Below the pieces are notes generated by a model. The model saw only the letters and a list, made by a program, of their open reading frames with translations, was not told where the DNA came from and did not search any database. The translations under genes and the position numbers were made by a program. Source: Solibacillus sp. FSL R7-0682 (lineage in GTDB: Bacteria; Bacillota; Bacilli; Bacillales_A; Planococcaceae). Taken from it: a DNA stretch of 64,000 nucleotides. Positions 1 through 39,664 of the stretch are shown piece after piece; position 1 is the stretch's first letter, and every line of letters starts with the position of its first letter. The stretch lies in contig NZ_JBBOUI010000001.1 of assembly GCF_038005985.1 (NCBI RefSeq), forward strand, positions 1,136,001 to 1,200,000, written 5' to 3'.

Positions 1-2
1 CG

Positions 3-1202
3 CAAATTAATTATTCGAAAGATACGCTATTTGAAATGTTAGAGAGGTATGACTGCTTATATCTAAAACCGATTGTTGGAATGGATATTATTACAATTAA
101 TAAAATACAAGAAGTGTTTCATATAACGACAACTATACATTCTTTTGAAGCAACCGAACGAGAAACGGTTTATGAGCTAATACAAAAGGAAGTCAATAAT
201 AGAAGGTATCTTATACAGCCTCAAATAAATGAAAAATTTATTCCTATAAGAAATTACCGACGATTTATTACCGTTCAAAAAAGAGGTTTAAATTGGCGTG
301 TTACGGCTTCAACAAAACAATCAAATCATTTTCAAGAATATATTATTTATTCTTCGCAACGGGCTAGTATACAAAAAATTGCTTTATTGGCGGCAGAACA
401 ATTAGGTAAATATTACTCGGAATGCGAGGCAATTGTTGTAGAAGTCTCATTCAATAGGATGGGTACTTTTTATATTACAGATTCATTTTTACACTTTTCA
501 GTAAGTAAATGGAATCAATACCAATCCCTAGAATACCTAATGCCGAAAACGGATTTATTAACAGCAGCGACATTTCAATCCTTTTTACAAACATATCCCC
601 TTATATTTTTAAAACCATGTAATGGTCAACAAGGTAAGGGCATTATTAAAGTTCAAAATGTTAATAGCATATGTTACGAAATTCATATGGGCAGACAAAA
701 ATGGGTTATACAAGGTATTCAACCAGTGTATGAGCATATTCGTGAACTAGCACCAATCGAAGATAATTACATTATTCAACAAGGGATAGAATTAGCAACA
801 ATTAAAAACTACTTTACTGATATACGTGTTATGACTAATAAGGATCAAAGCGATTGGCAAGTTACAGGGAAGGCTGTCAAAGTAGCAGGACCACATTTCT
901 TTGTTACAAATGCAGCTCAAGCGGTTTTACCTTTAGAGTTGGCATTAAAGCATTCCTCAATACAACCTATCCATCATCCGAGCCTTGAAAAGAAAATTGA
1001 TAAGGCTTGTTTAATGGCGGCAAATTTACTTGATCAACCTGCTGAACGCACGATAATTGGATTCGATGTGGGCGTTACAGATTATGGACAGATATGGATT
1101 ATTGAAGGAAATTATGTGCCAGATATGTCATTAATTTACAGATTTAATGATCCATTGCAGTACGAGAATATTTTAAAGATTAATGTTAATCATTCAACCT
1201 AG
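3..1202 (+). CDS. YheC/YheD-family tandem ATP-grasp protein (5' partial)
   Basis: The frame is open to the left edge of the window. The first ATG is at 36, but the codons before it already read as the run-up to an ATP-grasp strand (SKDTLFEMLERYDCLYLKP), so the true start lies outside. The protein looks like two YheC/YheD-type ATP-grasp modules in one chain. The first ('YLKPIVGMD') has lost the glycine-rich ADP loop. The second (from about residue 180 after the ATG) is complete in appearance: 'FLKPCNGQQGKGIIKV', then 'YIIQQGIELA', a 'DIRVMT' strand and a C-terminal 'GFDVGV...WIIEGNYVPD' metal-binding strand. YheC and YheD are spore coat-associated proteins in Bacillus and are predicted amide or peptide ligases. 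A Mur ligase gene follows 61 bp downstream, which suggests joint peptide-bond chemistry; the substrate is unknown. Confidence 0.75.
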   Translation, partial: QINYSKDTLFEMLERYDCLYLKPIVGMDIITINKIQEVFHITTTIHSFEATERETVYELIQKEVNNRRYLIQPQINEKFIPIRNYRRFITVQKRGLNWRVTASTKQSNHFQEYIIYSSQRASIQKIALLAAEQLGKYYSECEAIVVEVSFNRMGTFYITDSFLHFSVSKWNQYQSLEYLMPKTDLLTAATFQSFLQTYPLIFLKPCNGQQGKGIIKVQNVNSICYEIHMGRQKWVIQGIQPVYEHIRELAPIEDNYIIQQGIELATIKNYFTDIRVMTNKDQSDWQVTGKAVKVAGPHFFVTNAAQAVLPLELALKHSSIQPIHHPSLEKKIDKACLMAANLLDQPAERTIIGFDVGVTDYGQIWIIEGNYVPDMSLIYRFNDPLQYENILKINVNHST

Positions 1203-1263
1203 TGAATTGAGAAAAATCTTCATAACCTAGTGGAAAGGGGGGGATATTATCCGAGCTATACAT

Positions 1264-2637
1264 GTGAAAACGATTCGGCAAATACTAAAAGGGGAATTAC
1301 TTAGTGGAGCGGAAAATTGGTACGTAAAACACGTAATTTATTATAATCGTCATGATTTAGTTGCGCCGAATACGTTATTATTTGTAAGTAAGAGCGACAA
1401 AATAAATTGGAATGAGCTAAATGTGAAAGCACCTGTAGTTATAATTTCAGATAAGCAAGAAGATGAACTAAGACATGCACTCCCTCAAACAACAGTTATT
1501 CAAGTGCGGAGTGTCTTGCAGGCGTATTGGACATTTATTGAATATTATCGTAATTTATTTGATATTCCAGTTGTTGCGATTACTGGAACGTGTGGAAAGA
1601 CAACAACAAAAGAAATGCTGAAACATATTTTAAGTAAAGAAATGCCAGTGCAAACGTCCTTTAGTAGCAAAAATGAACCACGCCAATCCTTACCTTATTT
1701 ACTGGGGATTAATAGTAATACGAAAGCAGCAGTATTTGAACTTGGACTAGGAAACTCAGGGAATATTAAGCATCAATGTAAGATTTATCAGCCAACAATT
1801 GGGATTATTACGAATATCGGTGTTCATCATTTAGATGGCTGTAAAGACTTAGCAGGTTATATAAAAGCAAAAGCAGAAATTTTGGAAGGGATAAGAACAG
1901 GTGGAACCCTCATTATCAATGCGGATGATGCCAATACAAAGAAAATTTCGTTAACAACTTTTCAAGGAAAGCTTGTAACATTCAGTATAAAGGATAAGGC
2001 AGATGTCTATGCGACTAAGCTGCAATTTGCAGCAAATGGTATGAGATTTCAAGTGCATATAGATAATAAAACATATCAAGCGTATGTCCCAGGCTTTGGA
2101 GAACATCAAGTGTATAATGTTCTCGCAGCAATTGCTACTGTAAGAGAAATGGGTCTTTCTGTTCAAAAAGCTATTTTACATTTAAGAACATTTAAACAGA
2201 TGGAACGGCATTTACAGCTGTCAAAAGGTATTGGTGGAAGTACTATTATTGATGATACGTGGACAAATAACCCAACTTCAGTTGAAGCAGCATTAAAAGT
2301 ATTACATTCAATAGGTAAAGGGAAAAAACTAATCGTTGTGTTAGGTGATATTAAACGACTTGGTCGGTTTGAAAAAAAGTATCATCGAGATATTGGCAGT
2401 TTAGTTGCGACCTATCCGATTAATACGGTCGTTACAGTTGGTACACGAGCGGAAGATATCGCAAAGCAAGCAATTGCGGATGGAACGAAAGCAGAAGTTC
2501 ATGCTTTTAAAGACATACAAGGGGTGTTAAAGCTATTAGAGCCGAAGCTAGATGCGCGAACTATATTGCTTATTAAAGGACCTATGTCGAGTAGAGCGAT
2601 GATTGAATTTGCCCAACAGTTAAAGCAAAAAAAATAG
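1264..2637 (+). CDS. MurF-like Mur ligase family protein
   Basis: A 457-residue Mur ligase with the usual three parts. An N-terminal substrate domain (about 1-105) is followed by the central ATPase with P-loop 'GTCGKTTTKEM' (about 109-119), 'TNIGVHHLDG' and 'KAKAEIL'. A C-terminal domain carries 'VVLGDIKRLG' and 'LLIKGPMSSRAM'. The motif 'DDTWTNNPTSVEAAL' corresponds to the MurF 'DxYNANPxS' stretch but has T-N-N in place of N-A-N. It resembles MurF (UDP-MurNAc-tripeptide:D-Ala-D-Ala ligase), yet sits beside a YheC/YheD ATP-grasp gene rather than ddl, so it may be a paralogue joining another peptide. The start is uncertain. GTG at 1264 lies about 20 nt after the strong GGAAAGGGGGGG (1232-1243); an ATT at 1246 in frame is better placed but rare. 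Convergent with the next gene. Confidence 0.75.
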   Translation: MKTIRQILKGELLSGAENWYVKHVIYYNRHDLVAPNTLLFVSKSDKINWNELNVKAPVVIISDKQEDELRHALPQTTVIQVRSVLQAYWTFIEYYRNLFDIPVVAITGTCGKTTTKEMLKHILSKEMPVQTSFSSKNEPRQSLPYLLGINSNTKAAVFELGLGNSGNIKHQCKIYQPTIGIITNIGVHHLDGCKDLAGYIKAKAEILEGIRTGGTLIINADDANTKKISLTTFQGKLVTFSIKDKADVYATKLQFAANGMRFQVHIDNKTYQAYVPGFGEHQVYNVLAAIATVREMGLSVQKAILHLRTFKQMERHLQLSKGIGGSTIIDDTWTNNPTSVEAALKVLHSIGKGKKLIVVLGDIKRLGRFEKKYHRDIGSLVATYPINTVVTVGTRAEDIAKQAIADGTKAEVHAFKDIQGVLKLLEPKLDARTILLIKGPMSSRAMIEFAQQLKQKK

Positions 2638-2685: not shown

Positions 2686-4044
2686 TTATATCACACGTTT
2701 CGCTTTCACATAATTTTCTTTTGACCATGTTGAGTTGATATTTTGTTTGACAGCTGTCCCGCCTGTTTTCATCATGATATATTGATTGTTTCCAACATAC
2801 ACAGCAGTTTGGGTAATTTTTGTCCCGCTATTATCCTCAGAGAAGAATAGTAGATCACCAGTTTTTAAGTTGGCCTTTTGAACCGAAGTACCGACATTTG
2901 CTTGACTAGAAGCTAGTTTCGATTTTAAATCGACACCATTTTTTTGGTAGACATAATAAGTGAATCCCGCACTTGTAAACGTTAACGTGCTTTCATTATA
3001 GCTATAACCAAATTTCGTTTTTCCTAATAAGTTATTCGCAGTAGTTACAATTTTAGTAGCCGAAGCTGTTGTTGATGGAGTTTCCTGTGATGGTGTAGAT
3101 GGTGTTGAAGACGTTGATCCATTAATTACACGTCGAGCAGTAATATAATGATCTTTATAATAATCTACCATCATCACACGAGTAATAACGCCATTAGAAT
3201 TCGGAATAATTAATCGATGATCACCCGCATAAATCGCGACAAGTGAAGGAGTTTTAGAGCCTACTGTACTATTGAAGAAAACTAAATCCCCTTTCTTTAA
3301 ATTCGCCTTTGATACGGCCGTTCCAAGCTTCATTTGTTCACTAATTGTTTTTGTTCCAAGTGACACACCCGTTGTACGGTAAATATACTCGACAAATCCG
3401 CCCATCGTAAATTTTAAAGAAGCGTCATTGTTGACAGATCCCATCGTTACTTTGTTTATATTGGCGTATGCCTTTTCAACAATTTTGTCCCCTGTAGTTG
3501 CAGGATTTGAAGACATTAGTGTTGGTAAAACACGGCGAGCGCCTACATAATTTTCCGTGTAATATGGTTTGCTATCTAAATCTGAAATAACAATGTTTTG
3601 CTTTGAATCGGCCATATGAATTACTTTATTATCGCCAATATACATTGCTACATGGTCAGGATCAGTTCCTGTTTTTTTACTTTTGAAAAATAGTAAATCT
3701 CCTTTTTGAAGATTGTTACGAGCAACTGCCGTTCCTTGTTGCATCATAGAGTCTTCATTGTAAGTAGCTAAATCAACCCCATTTTTCTCAAAGATATACA
3801 TAAGGAATGTTGCACAAGAGAATTTATATGGTGCAGTAGGCTTATACTCAGTGTTACTATATGTCGCCTTTCCGATTAAACTTTTAGCTGTATTAATTAA
3901 TTGATTTGCCTTGTTGGCAACCGCTTGATCATTATTTTGTGCATTAGCAGCAAATACCGGTGCTGGTTCGGTAATGACTGGGATAGCAGATAATGAACTA
4001 AAGCCAATCGTTAATGCTAATGTTGTAATAAAACGTTTTTTCAT
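2686..4044 (-). CDS. Secreted NlpC/P60-family protein with three repeats (one active, two degenerate)
   Basis: 452 residues with a Sec signal peptide (MKKRFITTLALTIGF, cleavage near AXA around residue 32). Three NlpC/P60-like (C40 peptidase) repeats follow, at about 45-170, 185-308 and 330-452, the last two separated by a Ser/Thr/Pro linker. Repeat 1 keeps the catalytic Cys in 'YKFSCATF' and His in 'DPDHVAMYIG', so it can be a gamma-D-glutamyl-L-diamino acid endopeptidase acting on peptidoglycan. In repeat 2 the Cys position reads 'KFTMGGF' and the His position 'PSLVAIYAG'. In repeat 3 they read 'TFTSAGF' and 'TQTAVYVG'. Both repeats have therefore lost the catalytic pair while keeping the fold signature 'LKKGDLVFF'. 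The degenerate copies may bind the cell wall. RBS AGGAGG precedes the ATG. Single gene with its own terminator. Confidence 0.85.
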   Translation of the reverse strand: MKKRFITTLALTIGFSSLSAIPVITEPAPVFAANAQNNDQAVANKANQLINTAKSLIGKATYSNTEYKPTAPYKFSCATFLMYIFEKNGVDLATYNEDSMMQQGTAVARNNLQKGDLLFFKSKKTGTDPDHVAMYIGDNKVIHMADSKQNIVISDLDSKPYYTENYVGARRVLPTLMSSNPATTGDKIVEKAYANINKVTMGSVNNDASLKFTMGGFVEYIYRTTGVSLGTKTISEQMKLGTAVSKANLKKGDLVFFNSTVGSKTPSLVAIYAGDHRLIIPNSNGVITRVMMVDYYKDHYITARRVINGSTSSTPSTPSQETPSTTASATKIVTTANNLLGKTKFGYSYNESTLTFTSAGFTYYVYQKNGVDLKSKLASSQANVGTSVQKANLKTGDLLFFSEDNSGTKITQTAVYVGNNQYIMMKTGGTAVKQNINSTWSKENYVKAKRVI

Positions 4045-4314: not shown

Positions 4315-4755
4315 TTAGAAGCATTGGAATGTATAAATACTGTCTGGATTTAGCGGTTGATAAGTCCAACCCCATCGTTGTCTCCAGCGGTAGCCAAGAA
4401 TAATATTCCCCATTACAAATGTTGGATAAAACCAAAATCCTTGTTGATTATTTAGCCAGACATAGGTGTGCCTAAATAAACAGCTTCTCATACTACCTGA
4501 ACCTGGCCGCCATGTAGCCATAGTAGGAGTAAACGTAGGTGGTGGTCCCATTGGAGGGGGAGGAATTTGACCGCCTCCTCCAGGTCCAGGTTGCCCAGGT
4601 TGCCCAGGTGGACCGGGATGCCCAGGTGTCCATGGTGGTGGGCCGCCGGGTGGTCCAGGTGGTCCAGGCGGGCCTGGTGGAAAGAAACCAGGCGATTGTG
4701 GCCAATTGAATGGCTCGAATTCTCCTTGCTGTCCATTAAATGGATTTACATTCAC
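4315..4755 (-). CDS. Collagen-like Gly/Pro-rich probable spore-surface protein
   Basis: About 146 residues. The N-terminal half has a G-P-P/G-Q-P collagen-like tract (about residues 24-65), then a Pro-rich linker. The C-terminal domain is rich in aromatics (CLFRHTYVWL, FWFYPTFVMG, YRWRQRWGW, final FQCF), a pattern I recall from Bacillus/Paenibacillus proteins of unknown function. I choose GTG at 4755. AGAAGGG sits 6 nt upstream, whereas the in-frame ATG at 4773 has no RBS and lies only about 4 nt from the transcription start predicted by a sigma-K-type promoter at 4784-4811. That promoter implies late mother-cell expression and so a coat or exosporium location, which is inference. There is no signal peptide, as expected for a mother-cell coat protein. 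Confidence 0.7.
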   Translation of the reverse strand: MNVNPFNGQQGEFEPFNWPQSPGFFPPGPPGPPGPPGGPPPWTPGHPGPPGQPGQPGPGGGGQIPPPPMGPPPTFTPTMATWRPGSGSMRSCLFRHTYVWLNNQQGFWFYPTFVMGNIILGYRWRQRWGWTYQPLNPDSIYTFQCF

Positions 4756-4783
4756 ATATTTCCCTTCTTTCATGCATTTGCTT

Positions 4784-6554: not shown

Positions 6555-7745
6555 TTATTTTGTATAGTTATCGAAATAACCTTGGATGTAAATCATTGGT
6601 GTTCCTTTATCACCTGAACCCGAAGTTAAATCAGATAAAGAACCAATTAAATCAGTTAATTTACGAGGTGTAGTGCCTTGTGCAGCCATGTTCCCCGTTA
6701 AATCTTCTTCCTTATTATTAATATATTCTTTAATCGCAGCTTTTAAATCTTCACCTTTTAATTCAGAAAAGTCATTATCTGCTAAATATTTTAATTTAAT
6801 TTCGTTTGGTGTACCGTCAAGACCAGGTGTATATGCTGGTGAGACAACTGGGTCAGCAAGTTCCCAAATTTGACCTACTGGATCTTTAAATGCTCCATCA
6901 CCGTATATCATAACTTCGACTAATTTCCCTGTCGCTTCAAGAATTTTAGATTGAATTTTATCAACGATTGGTTGGCAATTGTCAGGGAATAATTTAATAC
7001 CATCTTCTGTTGATTTGTTCGATCCAAGCAAACCGTATTTTGAATTGAATCCTGAGCCGTTTACTGATTCAGATAAAATGTTATCTAATCCAAATATTTT
7101 TTCAGCACCCGCAGCAGTTAATAAACGTTTTGTACGGAAGCGAGAATGAATATCACAAGTTAAAACGCTCTTTGTATAGTTTAAAATTGTTTTTGCATTG
7201 TTTGAGAAGATGACTTCCACTTCAGCGCCTTGTTCTTCGATTAGTTCTTTATAATATTCGATATAGTCAACACCAGTAAATGTATGTTTGTTATAACCAA
7301 AGTGACCACGGAACTCAGCTTCAGTTAATACATCTGTCCATGGGTTAATTCCTTTTTCATCCAGTTCATCTAATGTTACTAAATGGTTACCAACCTCGTC
7401 AGATGGATAGCTTAGCATTAGGACGATTTTTTTTGTCCCCTTTGCAATTCCTTTTAAAATGTTAGAAAAGCGGTTACGTGAAAGAATTGGGAAAATAACA
7501 CCAACCGTATCATCTCCAAATTTTTCTTGTACATCTGCACCGATATCTGTAATTTTGGCATAGTTACCTTGTGCACGTGCAACAACAGATTCAGTTACTG
7601 TTACGATATCACGATCCTCGATGTCATAACCTTCTACCTTTGCAGCATTTAATGCCGTGTCGACAACGATTTGTACAATATCGTCCCCTTCATTAATAAT
7701 TGGGCCACGAAGACCTCGTACAACTGTTCCTACTACACGTTCCAA
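6555..7745 (-). CDS. Coenzyme F420-0:L-glutamate ligase (CofE)-like protein
   Basis: 396 residues resembling the CofE/FbiB-N fold family (F420-0:gamma-glutamyl ligase). It has an N-terminal 'VVGTVVRGLRGPI', 'DRDIVTVTESVVARAQGNY' and, near the middle, 'MIYGDGAFKDPVGQIWELADP', the metal-binding region of the family. CofE adds gamma-linked glutamate to F420-0 with GTP. Bacilli are not known to make F420 and no other F420 gene is in the window, so the true acceptor is unknown and it may be a gamma-glutamyl ligase for something else. Translation starts at TTG (7745) behind AAGGGAGA. It is divergent from a LysR regulator, which could control it. Confidence 0.65.
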   Translation of the reverse strand: MERVVGTVVRGLRGPIINEGDDIVQIVVDTALNAAKVEGYDIEDRDIVTVTESVVARAQGNYAKITDIGADVQEKFGDDTVGVIFPILSRNRFSNILKGIAKGTKKIVLMLSYPSDEVGNHLVTLDELDEKGINPWTDVLTEAEFRGHFGYNKHTFTGVDYIEYYKELIEEQGAEVEVIFSNNAKTILNYTKSVLTCDIHSRFRTKRLLTAAGAEKIFGLDNILSESVNGSGFNSKYGLLGSNKSTEDGIKLFPDNCQPIVDKIQSKILEATGKLVEVMIYGDGAFKDPVGQIWELADPVVSPAYTPGLDGTPNEIKLKYLADNDFSELKGEDLKAAIKEYINNKEEDLTGNMAAQGTTPRKLTDLIGSLSDLTSGSGDKGTPMIYIQGYFDNYTK

Positions 7746-39150: not shown

Positions 39151-39181
39151 ATAACTATAAAATTAAAAGGAGTTGAAGTTT

Positions 39182-39664
39182 ATGAAAAAGGTTATAAGTT
39201 CTTTAATGATTTTCTCTTTGTTCTTAGTTACGGTATCAAGTACAAGTCTAAATGTTAAGGCTAGTACGGTCGAAAAAGGTCATTACATAAATGATGATAA
39301 TTTGACTGAAGAGTTGATTTTAGTAGATGAAACAGAGATTGAATACAATACAACTGTAGCACCTATTATTGCTTATTTATTGAGAAAAGCTGTAGTGGAT
39401 GCTGTAAAAGATTTTGGGAAACAGGCAGTTATAGATGCTGTCATGAAAGAATTGGATTTACCAAAAGTAATTAGCGGTAAAAATCTTGTAAAAAAACTTA
39501 AAAAAGTTGGTTTTGAAGAAGTTAGACAAAATGGAAGCCATATTATTATGAAAGGTCCTAATGGTAAAACTTTCCCTGTACCTGACCATAAGGAAATAGC
39601 AAAGGGAACTTACTCAGACATAAAAAAACAAATCAAAGATGCTATAATACCTGACTGGCTATAA
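39182..39664 (+). CDS. Secreted protein with C-terminal HicA-like RNA-toxin domain
   Basis: 160 residues in three parts. A Sec signal peptide (about 1-29, 'MKKVISSLMIFSLFLVTVSS', cleavage near VKAS) is followed by a linker with a helical stretch 'PIIAYLLRKAVVDAVKDFGK'. The C-terminal domain of about 55 residues reads 'SGKNLVKKLKKVGFEEVRQN', 'GSHIIMKGPNGKTFPVPDHK', 'EIAKGTYSDIKKQI'. This last part matches HicA, including the catalytic His in the G-S-H motif. HicA is normally an intracellular mRNA interferase paired with HicB. Export suggests a toxin aimed at other cells, or a repurposed domain. No HicB-like gene is adjacent. ATG at 39182 follows AAAGGAG at 9 nt. It resembles the secreted putative toxins of Bacillales in layout; that comparison is from memory. 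Confidence 0.65.
   Translation: MKKVISSLMIFSLFLVTVSSTSLNVKASTVEKGHYINDDNLTEELILVDETEIEYNTTVAPIIAYLLRKAVVDAVKDFGKQAVIDAVMKELDLPKVISGKNLVKKLKKVGFEEVRQNGSHIIMKGPNGKTFPVPDHKEIAKGTYSDIKKQIKDAIIPDWL

Follow-up and report, generated by a model that had tools for sequence, protein, structure and literature searches.

Cyanophycin synthetase (CphA) has been described as fusing an ATP-grasp domain with a Mur ligase domain (PMC11915815; PMC9262961), and in CphA1 aspartate is reportedly added to the chain by the ATP-grasp domain, arginine to the side chain by the Mur domain (PMC9262961). Among spore proteins, YheC is listed as a coat protein (PMC7352945), and YheD has been placed in the base layer of the coat (PMC3533761) and, in Bacillus subtilis, is said to form a shell round the spore, its function being given there as not known (PMC7911427). 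Poly-gamma-glutamate, in turn, is reportedly cut at its gamma-glutamyl bonds by PgdS, a protein with three NlpC/P60 repeats (PMC5880399). I report here on a gene cluster that bears likeness to each of these systems and that lies across the left edge of a 64,000-nucleotide stretch of Solibacillus sp. FSL R7-0682 (contig NZ_JBBOUI010000001.1, positions 1,136,001 to 1,200,000, that is G000:C1:1136001-1200000; hereafter the window). The ligase enzymes that it encodes and their conservation are well supported, the spore envelope as their place of action is supported indirectly, and a peptide product is a guess; as a whole, a probability of about 55 % is given to the proposal that the cluster is an amide-ligase system of the cyanophycin-synthetase kind, expressed in the mother cell and producing for the envelope of the spore a non-ribosomal peptide, perhaps a gamma-glutamyl one.

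Since the window's left edge cuts the cluster, inside the gene here called YheT, 19 kb round the window start were also analysed (L003, where the window coordinate equals the L003 coordinate minus 15000). The cluster starts some 6 kb upstream of the window with CotZL, a CotZ-like protein of 151 aa (L003:8821-9276, plus strand), followed on the same strand by FUS (L003:9295-11475; 726 aa), which joins a YheC/D-type ATP-grasp domain (aa 95-343) to the middle and C-terminal domains of a Mur ligase (aa 374-708). LALg, an L-amino-acid-ligase-type ATP-grasp protein of 406 aa (L003:11530-12750), runs on the minus strand, opposite to FUS and MurL1; MurL1 (L003:12883-14283, plus strand; 466 aa, MurF-like) and U145 (L003:14421-14858, plus strand), a small conserved protein of 145 aa, complete the part lying before the window. 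At the 3' end of the cluster stand YheT, a tandem YheC/D ATP-grasp protein of 430 aa (L003:14910-16202, plus strand; window 1-1202, the gene starting 91 bases before the window and its last 399 aa falling inside it), and the MurF-like MurL2 (window 1249-2637, or L003:16249-17637, plus strand). Convergent to MurL2, on the minus strand at window 2686-4044, lies a gene for a protein with a signal-like N-terminal segment and PF00877 (NlpC/P60) matches in three stretches.

A search with the FUS alignment gave 126 stretches of named genomes with a relative, of which the best 80 were kept; with six further loci they make up 86, all chosen by FUS, two of which (L036 and L086) seem to represent one genome, and several of which are truncated, either at a contig end or at the limit of the 10-kb flank, whereby some misses may be cuts. 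Within this set LALg occurs in 84 loci, full-length FUS in 81, MurL1 in 77, NlpC in 75, CotZL in 69, MurL2 in 65, YheT in 50 and U145 in 37. Gene order is likewise kept: in 59 of the 68 loci with both, CotZL stands directly ahead of FUS and shares its strand, U145 directly ahead of YheT in 37/37, LALg and MurL1 are divergent in 74/76, and MurL2 and NlpC converge within 500 nt in 56 of the 62 loci with both. The genera concerned include Lysinibacillus, Psychrobacillus, Sporosarcina, Neobacillus, Lederbergia, Domibacillus, Jeotgalibacillus, Metasolibacillus and Peribacillus, to which a Clostridia metagenome bin is to be added; two genomes of the window's own family (G017 and G020) hold only CotZL, one YheC/D protein and LALg. 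In the window's genus, FUS is present in 6 of 16 genomes, and the NlpC protein (E 1e-60) in exactly those six (6/6 with, 0/10 without FUS).

The first-pass annotation had taken YheT and MurL2 for a possible peptide-ligase pair comparable to cyanophycin synthetase. The peptide-ligase reading is supported, and the adjacency on which it was built is conserved, YheT being followed by MurL2 in 31 of the 37 loci where the two occur. The pair as a functional unit in its own right is rejected on the locus counts, YheT not being found in 36 of the 86 loci, as against LALg in 84 and MurL1 in 77. The parallel with cyanophycin synthetase, for its part, turns out to be stronger than had been claimed, since an actual fusion of ATP-grasp and Mur ligase, FUS, is encoded in the same cluster.

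In FUS, as in CphA1, a single chain carries an ATP-grasp (G) domain and then a Mur-like (M) domain, an order found both by Pfam and by model alignment. The ATP-grasp half scores 214.9 bits with PF14398 (cut-off 26.8), and the ATP-grasp glycine loop is present in 80 of 81 FUS proteins. The predicted model (pTM 0.63) aligns residues 18-725 of FUS with residues 163-877 of CphA1 (Z 31.4) at an rmsd of 24.1, a value so large that the domains can be said to match, their packing being different or unsure. The two proteins differ in that the ATP-grasp half of FUS belongs to the YheC/D family, its Mur half is nearest to MurF, and there is no room for an N domain such as that of CphA, only 17 residues preceding the aligned region (CphA1 163 = FUS 18). 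Furthermore, FUS stands with extra ligases and is spore-linked. The identification of FUS as cyanophycin synthetase by family score was rejected, TIGR02068 giving 66.1 bits, over the Mur part only, against a cut-off of 850. Fold searches with FUS were dominated by matches of the Mur half, and neither the Pfam domains nor the CphA1 alignment reveal a MurF N domain. The two halves of FUS occur as separate neighbouring genes in L122 (the Clostridia bin), L123 (Bacillus sp. MRMR6) and L143, and the fusion therefore joins genes that also stand together elsewhere. FUS looks like a second ATP-grasp/Mur ligase fusion beside cyanophycin synthetase, built with a different ATP-grasp family.

YheC/D domains (PF14398) were found in this genome only in FUS and YheT, and this domain is what the cluster shares with YheC and YheD of B. 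subtilis, which are not known to be fused to a Mur ligase or to have one as a neighbour. The two YheC/YheD modules that had been read in YheT, the first without the glycine-rich loop, are borne out by two matches above the PF14398 cut-off. The first (47.6 bits, profile 15-143) begins before the window and ends in it (window 1-311; G000:C1:1135952-1136311, plus strand); at the place of the glycine loop it reads LKPIVGMD, and GxG is absent there from six of the seven aligned orthologues, the seventh (L036) having GPGK. The second (139.6 bits, profile 20-246; window 513-1178, plus strand) has both the glycine-rich loop and the EGN triplet, the loop KPxxGxxGxG being kept in all 39 YheT proteins of at least 400 aa; EGNY is found in 7/7 aligned rows, and the narrow pattern [EI]EGN[YW] fits 21/39. 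No relative of YheT was found by sequence among solved structures (best E 0.79). In the 261 genomes of the family examined, YheT is present in 39, of which 38 have an approximately full-length FUS, and of the 79 genomes with an approximately full-length FUS 41 are without YheT.

MurL2, first called at window 1264-2637, matches Mur_ligase_M (133.5 bits) and Mur_ligase_C (54.8 bits). The altered motif noticed at the outset, T-N-N in place of the N-A-N of MurF (window 2263-2271, plus strand), is confirmed by alignment, DDTWTNNPTS of MurL2 standing opposite NDAYNAAPTS of the genome's own murF; since 56 of 65 orthologues keep DDTWTNNP, and all 65 keep DDTW..NP, the change is not due to chance. Its P-loop GTCGKTT (window 1585-1605, plus strand) follows the pattern G..GKT[TS], which is kept in 65/65 orthologues, as is the lysine motif AK.E. 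The predicted model of MurL2 (mean pLDDT 87.4) aligns with MurF 4qf5_B over 434 residues (Z 38.8, rmsd 3.2), hence over the whole length, so that MurL2 as modelled has the three-domain Mur fold, N domain included. Its start is probably not GTG at 1264 (457 aa) but the ATC at window 1249 (462 aa), ahead of which lies a strong ribosome site, AAAGGGGGGG, at about 1232-1243. Among the 43 of 65 orthologues whose start could be placed, TTG is used in 23, ATG in 9, ATC in 5, GTG in 3 and ATT in 1, with 2 doubtful, all ATC and ATT starts falling within the window's genus; for MurL1, 40 of 46 placed starts are ATG and 29 were not placed. A variant occurs in Bacillus sp. MRMR6 (L123:8114-9877), where a MurL2-like ligase has a GNAT acetyltransferase domain at its N terminus (PF00583, 23.4 bits against a cut-off of 20.7).

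The genome has a murF elsewhere (G000:C1:298486), scoring 421.8 bits with TIGR01143 (cut-off 288.6) and preceded by a ddl-like gene; MurL2 is thereby ruled out as the genome's murF, and the possibility that it might be the sole one, which would have undone the first-pass annotation, falls away. The three MurF-type ligases of the cluster all remain below the same cut-off (MurL2 259.6, FUS 258.9 and MurL1 240.4 bits). In MurF, the motif G..[DN]GH of the N domain serves the UDP substrate. It was found in 0/65 MurL2 and 0/76 MurL1 proteins of at least 400 aa, against 9/9 murF rows, these nine coming from 10 loci tried, being chosen by other motifs, and five of them belonging to the window's genus. 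The P-loop, on the other hand, is kept in 65/65 MurL2, 70/76 MurL1 and 81/81 FUS proteins, and MurL1 has a motif of its own, DDTWS.TTTS, in 61/76. In a tree of 63 rows, taken from 15 of the 86 loci and relatives (3 of 66 rows having been dropped for few columns, two from L122 and one from L149), murF (100/100), MurL1 (95/91), MurL2 (99/96) and FUS (100/99) each form one clade; MurL1 has MurL2 as its sister (95/97), and FUS shares a clade with Mur genes that stand alone or are split (96/98). In short, MurL2 shares with MurF its fold and P-loop, and the pairing of Mur and LAL-type ATP-grasp ligases in the cluster may recall that of ddl and murF; the differences are the scores below cut-off, the separate clades, and the loss of the canonical N-domain motif from MurL1 and MurL2. 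Failing both the murF and the cyanophycin-synthetase scores and passing only PF14398, LAL_C2 and the Mur fold, the cluster is to be filed under no known system. Among the literature matches listed, no title or opening abstract lines describe it; the 2009 amidoligase survey of Iyer and others may have predicted part of it.

The link to the spore, assumed at the outset from what is known of YheC and YheD, is borne out indirectly, by co-occurrence and by upstream boxes, and a role on the vegetative wall, which had been entertained as well, is not supported. FUS-like genes (E 1e-80) are found in 102 of the 261 family genomes, 79 of them approximately full length (one with internal stops) and 23 with one half only, and SpoIVA (PF09547), encoded by a spore-coat gene, in 194; all 102 fall among the 194 SpoIVA-positive genomes, as against 0/67 SpoIVA-negative ones (Fisher p 3e-18, relatedness ignored). 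The -10 boxes of sigma-E and sigma-K are marked by CATA. Boxes of this type lie before MurL1 (CATATGCTA, L003:12855-12863) and MurL2 (CATAACCTA, window 1221-1229, plus strand), and the form CATANNNT[AG] was counted upstream of the cluster genes against first-order Markov samples. It exceeds expectation ahead of the genes presumed to begin operons, occurring in 58 of 70 LALg/MurL1 intergenic regions before MurL1 (mean 8.2; highest of 200 samples 15), in 66/125 before LALg (both copies where there are two; 24.6 expected), in 31/70 before CotZL (9.4 expected) and in 31/65 before MurL2 (11.4 expected). Inside the presumed operons the counts are 14/81 for FUS (13.3 expected), 3/38 for U145 (8.0) and 16/72 for YheT (9.7), and before 592 control genes the box was met 73 times (89.5 expected). 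Neither sigma-70 promoters nor terminators were in excess over shuffles in the cluster (42 vs 37.6 and 6 vs 5.6, respectively), and Rfam gave nothing at gathering scores in L003 8500-19000.

As to the remaining members, LALg scores 68.2 bits with LAL_C2 (PF18603; cut-off 29.4) and shares this domain and structure matches with the L-amino acid ligases, its closest solved relative, BL00235 (4wd3), being only remotely similar (E 1e-10). For U145, neither Pfam nor NCBIfam nor the solved structures yielded a noteworthy relative. The NlpC/P60 protein resembles PgdS, in which one of the repeats is catalytic, in having three of them; of the 75 orthologues that reach at least 280 aa, 65 show a motif like that of the catalytic cysteine a single time and 10 do not show it, and many orthologues are shorter, at about 310 aa. 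A similar likeness extends to the PgsB(CapB)-CapA/PgdS system, in that a Mur-type ligase accompanies a three-repeat NlpC/P60 protein and Mur relatives of FUS have CapA-type proteins as neighbours, the difference being that the cluster adds ATP-grasp enzymes; no PGA_cap gene was found among the cluster genes scanned with Pfam. Specifically, stand-alone Mur relatives of FUS adjoin a PGA_cap (CapA) protein in 6 of 8 loci examined (L042, L145, L146, L150, L151 and L152, five confirmed by Pfam and L151 by likeness; not L043 and L144), these genes sharing a clade with FUS (96/98) without forming one group inside it. Taken together, the NlpC/P60 and CapA neighbours suggest that the product may be gamma-glutamyl.

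In its own right, it may be noted that in other Bacilli a MurF-type ligase that stands alone, some 370-410 aa long, lies beside PGA_cap (CapA), accompanied in L152 by a two-repeat NlpC/P60 protein, possibly an unstudied gamma-glutamate-type pair.

A possible course of events can be outlined, in which the mother cell would make the enzymes of the cluster during sporulation and LALg would form a dipeptide from two free amino acids. FUS would extend the chain: its ATP-grasp half would activate a terminal carboxylate, and its Mur half would attach to a second carboxylate either an amino acid or, like MurF, a dipeptide. Further additions or capping might fall to MurL1, MurL2 and the second module of YheT. 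The product would be an isopeptide-linked, possibly gamma-glutamyl, oligomer or polymer laid in the coat or exosporium, which the secreted-looking NlpC/P60 protein may later cut. The bolder form of this idea, namely an undescribed isopeptide biopolymer of the spore surface, made without ribosome, tRNA or non-ribosomal peptide synthetase (NRPS) by a fusion of YheC/D and MurF type fed with LAL dipeptides, is tentative, and it is put at somewhat less than even odds.

Several observations weigh against an amide-ligase system for the spore envelope. The first module of YheT looks inactive; the murF motif GxMxELG, present in 74/81 FUS proteins, is absent from MurL2 (0/65) and MurL1 (0/76); and MurL1 has a strongly altered C-terminal motif, with no Mur_ligase_C match listed. 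Because of these motif losses and of the inactive-looking module, part of the ligase set may be structural. CotZL scores 20.6 bits with PF10612, under the cut-off of 24, and is for this reason called CotZ-like only. The box was found before NlpC in 5/74 cases (12.2 expected), an absence of excess by which NlpC is not clearly co-regulated. Strict two-box sigma-K and sigma-E patterns were near or little above shuffles (strict sigma-K in 3/79 for MurL1), whereas loose ones rose (sigma-K in 38/125 for LALg and 14/65 for MurL2; sigma-E in 9/79 for MurL1), and the -35-like block [CA]CAANC, in 41/70 against 0.14 expected, was read from the same regions in which it was counted, and its count is no independent test. 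Concerning the gamma-glutamyl part, the eight lone-Mur loci are a small choice from a longer list, and this chemistry would be deduced from neighbours and domain likeness only. Finally, the loci share descent, hence their counts are not independent.

Three other explanations of the same cluster have to be weighed. The enzymes might be amidoligases that tag proteins, attaching amino acids or short peptides to proteins of the coat (CotZL or U145 being the acceptors) in the manner of RimK and the tubulin ligases. The fixed position of either candidate acceptor, CotZL directly before FUS (59/68) and U145 directly before YheT (37/37), would suit such a role, as would the weak matches of the YheC/D domains to tubulin-tyrosine-ligase and RimK-type profiles and the shell that YheD itself is reported to form round the B. 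subtilis spore (PMC7911427); yet U145 is not found in 49 of the 86 loci, nor CotZL in 17, and the near-constant member is a ligase of the LAL type, with relatives that link free amino acids to each other, so that protein tagging is considered unlikely, if the most serious of the three. LAL-type ligases such as BL00235 make dipeptides. A diffusible peptide metabolite (an antibiotic, a metal chelator or a germination signal), made by the mother cell and freed on its lysis instead of entering the spore structure, is another reading, consistent with the closeness of LALg to BL00235, with its match to the profile of the dapdiamide synthase DdaF (53.1 bits, below cut-off), with the acetyltransferase-MurL fusion of one relative (L123) and with transport-like families near the cluster. 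The latter, which I take by likeness to be ABC ATPase (19/86 loci), permease (17) and small-multidrug-efflux (17) families, are among other recurring neighbour families none of which exceeds 19 of 86 loci, as against 69 for the CotZ-like coat relative, and a metabolite is regarded as improbable.

Least probable is a second MurF set that alters the stem peptide of spore peptidoglycan precursors, in the wall or the cortex. The complete three-domain MurF fold predicted for MurL2 (4qf5, Z 38.8, 434 residues) would fit it, and the solved NlpC/P60 relatives of the neighbouring protein include peptidoglycan endopeptidases; however, the motif G..[DN]GH is lost from every MurL2 and MurL1 (0/65 and 0/76, vs 9/9 murF), FUS is without the MurF N domain, and 10 of the 16 genomes of the window's genus have SpoIVA and no FUS-like match. 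A peptide-making amide-ligase system of the spore envelope is the explanation retained here, at the probability given above.

Some further genes of the window deserve mention. At window 4315-4773 lies a gene for a collagen-like, GPP-rich protein of 152 aa, possibly a spore-surface protein; L034 and L038 have similar genes near the cluster, and L041 has two of them near its reduced cluster. Window 6555-7745 encodes an F420-0 gamma-glutamyl ligase domain (PF01996, 188 bits), in a Bacillota genome, the CofE score being only 35.9 against a cut-off of 180.65, and PF01996 genes are also near the cluster in L034, L037, L038 and L039. Farther off, at window 39173-39664, a 163-aa protein begins with a signal-like segment and seems to resemble HicA/YcfA in its C-terminal part.

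In chemical terms, the spore coat is usually portrayed as protein together with sugars. A ligase cassette with sporulation-type boxes, present in many genera of Bacillaceae, would add to it a non-ribosomal peptide component. If the proposed amide-ligase system is real, the YheC and YheD coat proteins of Bacillus, long known and without a function, would gain a chemistry, and their role would become a question for enzyme assay.

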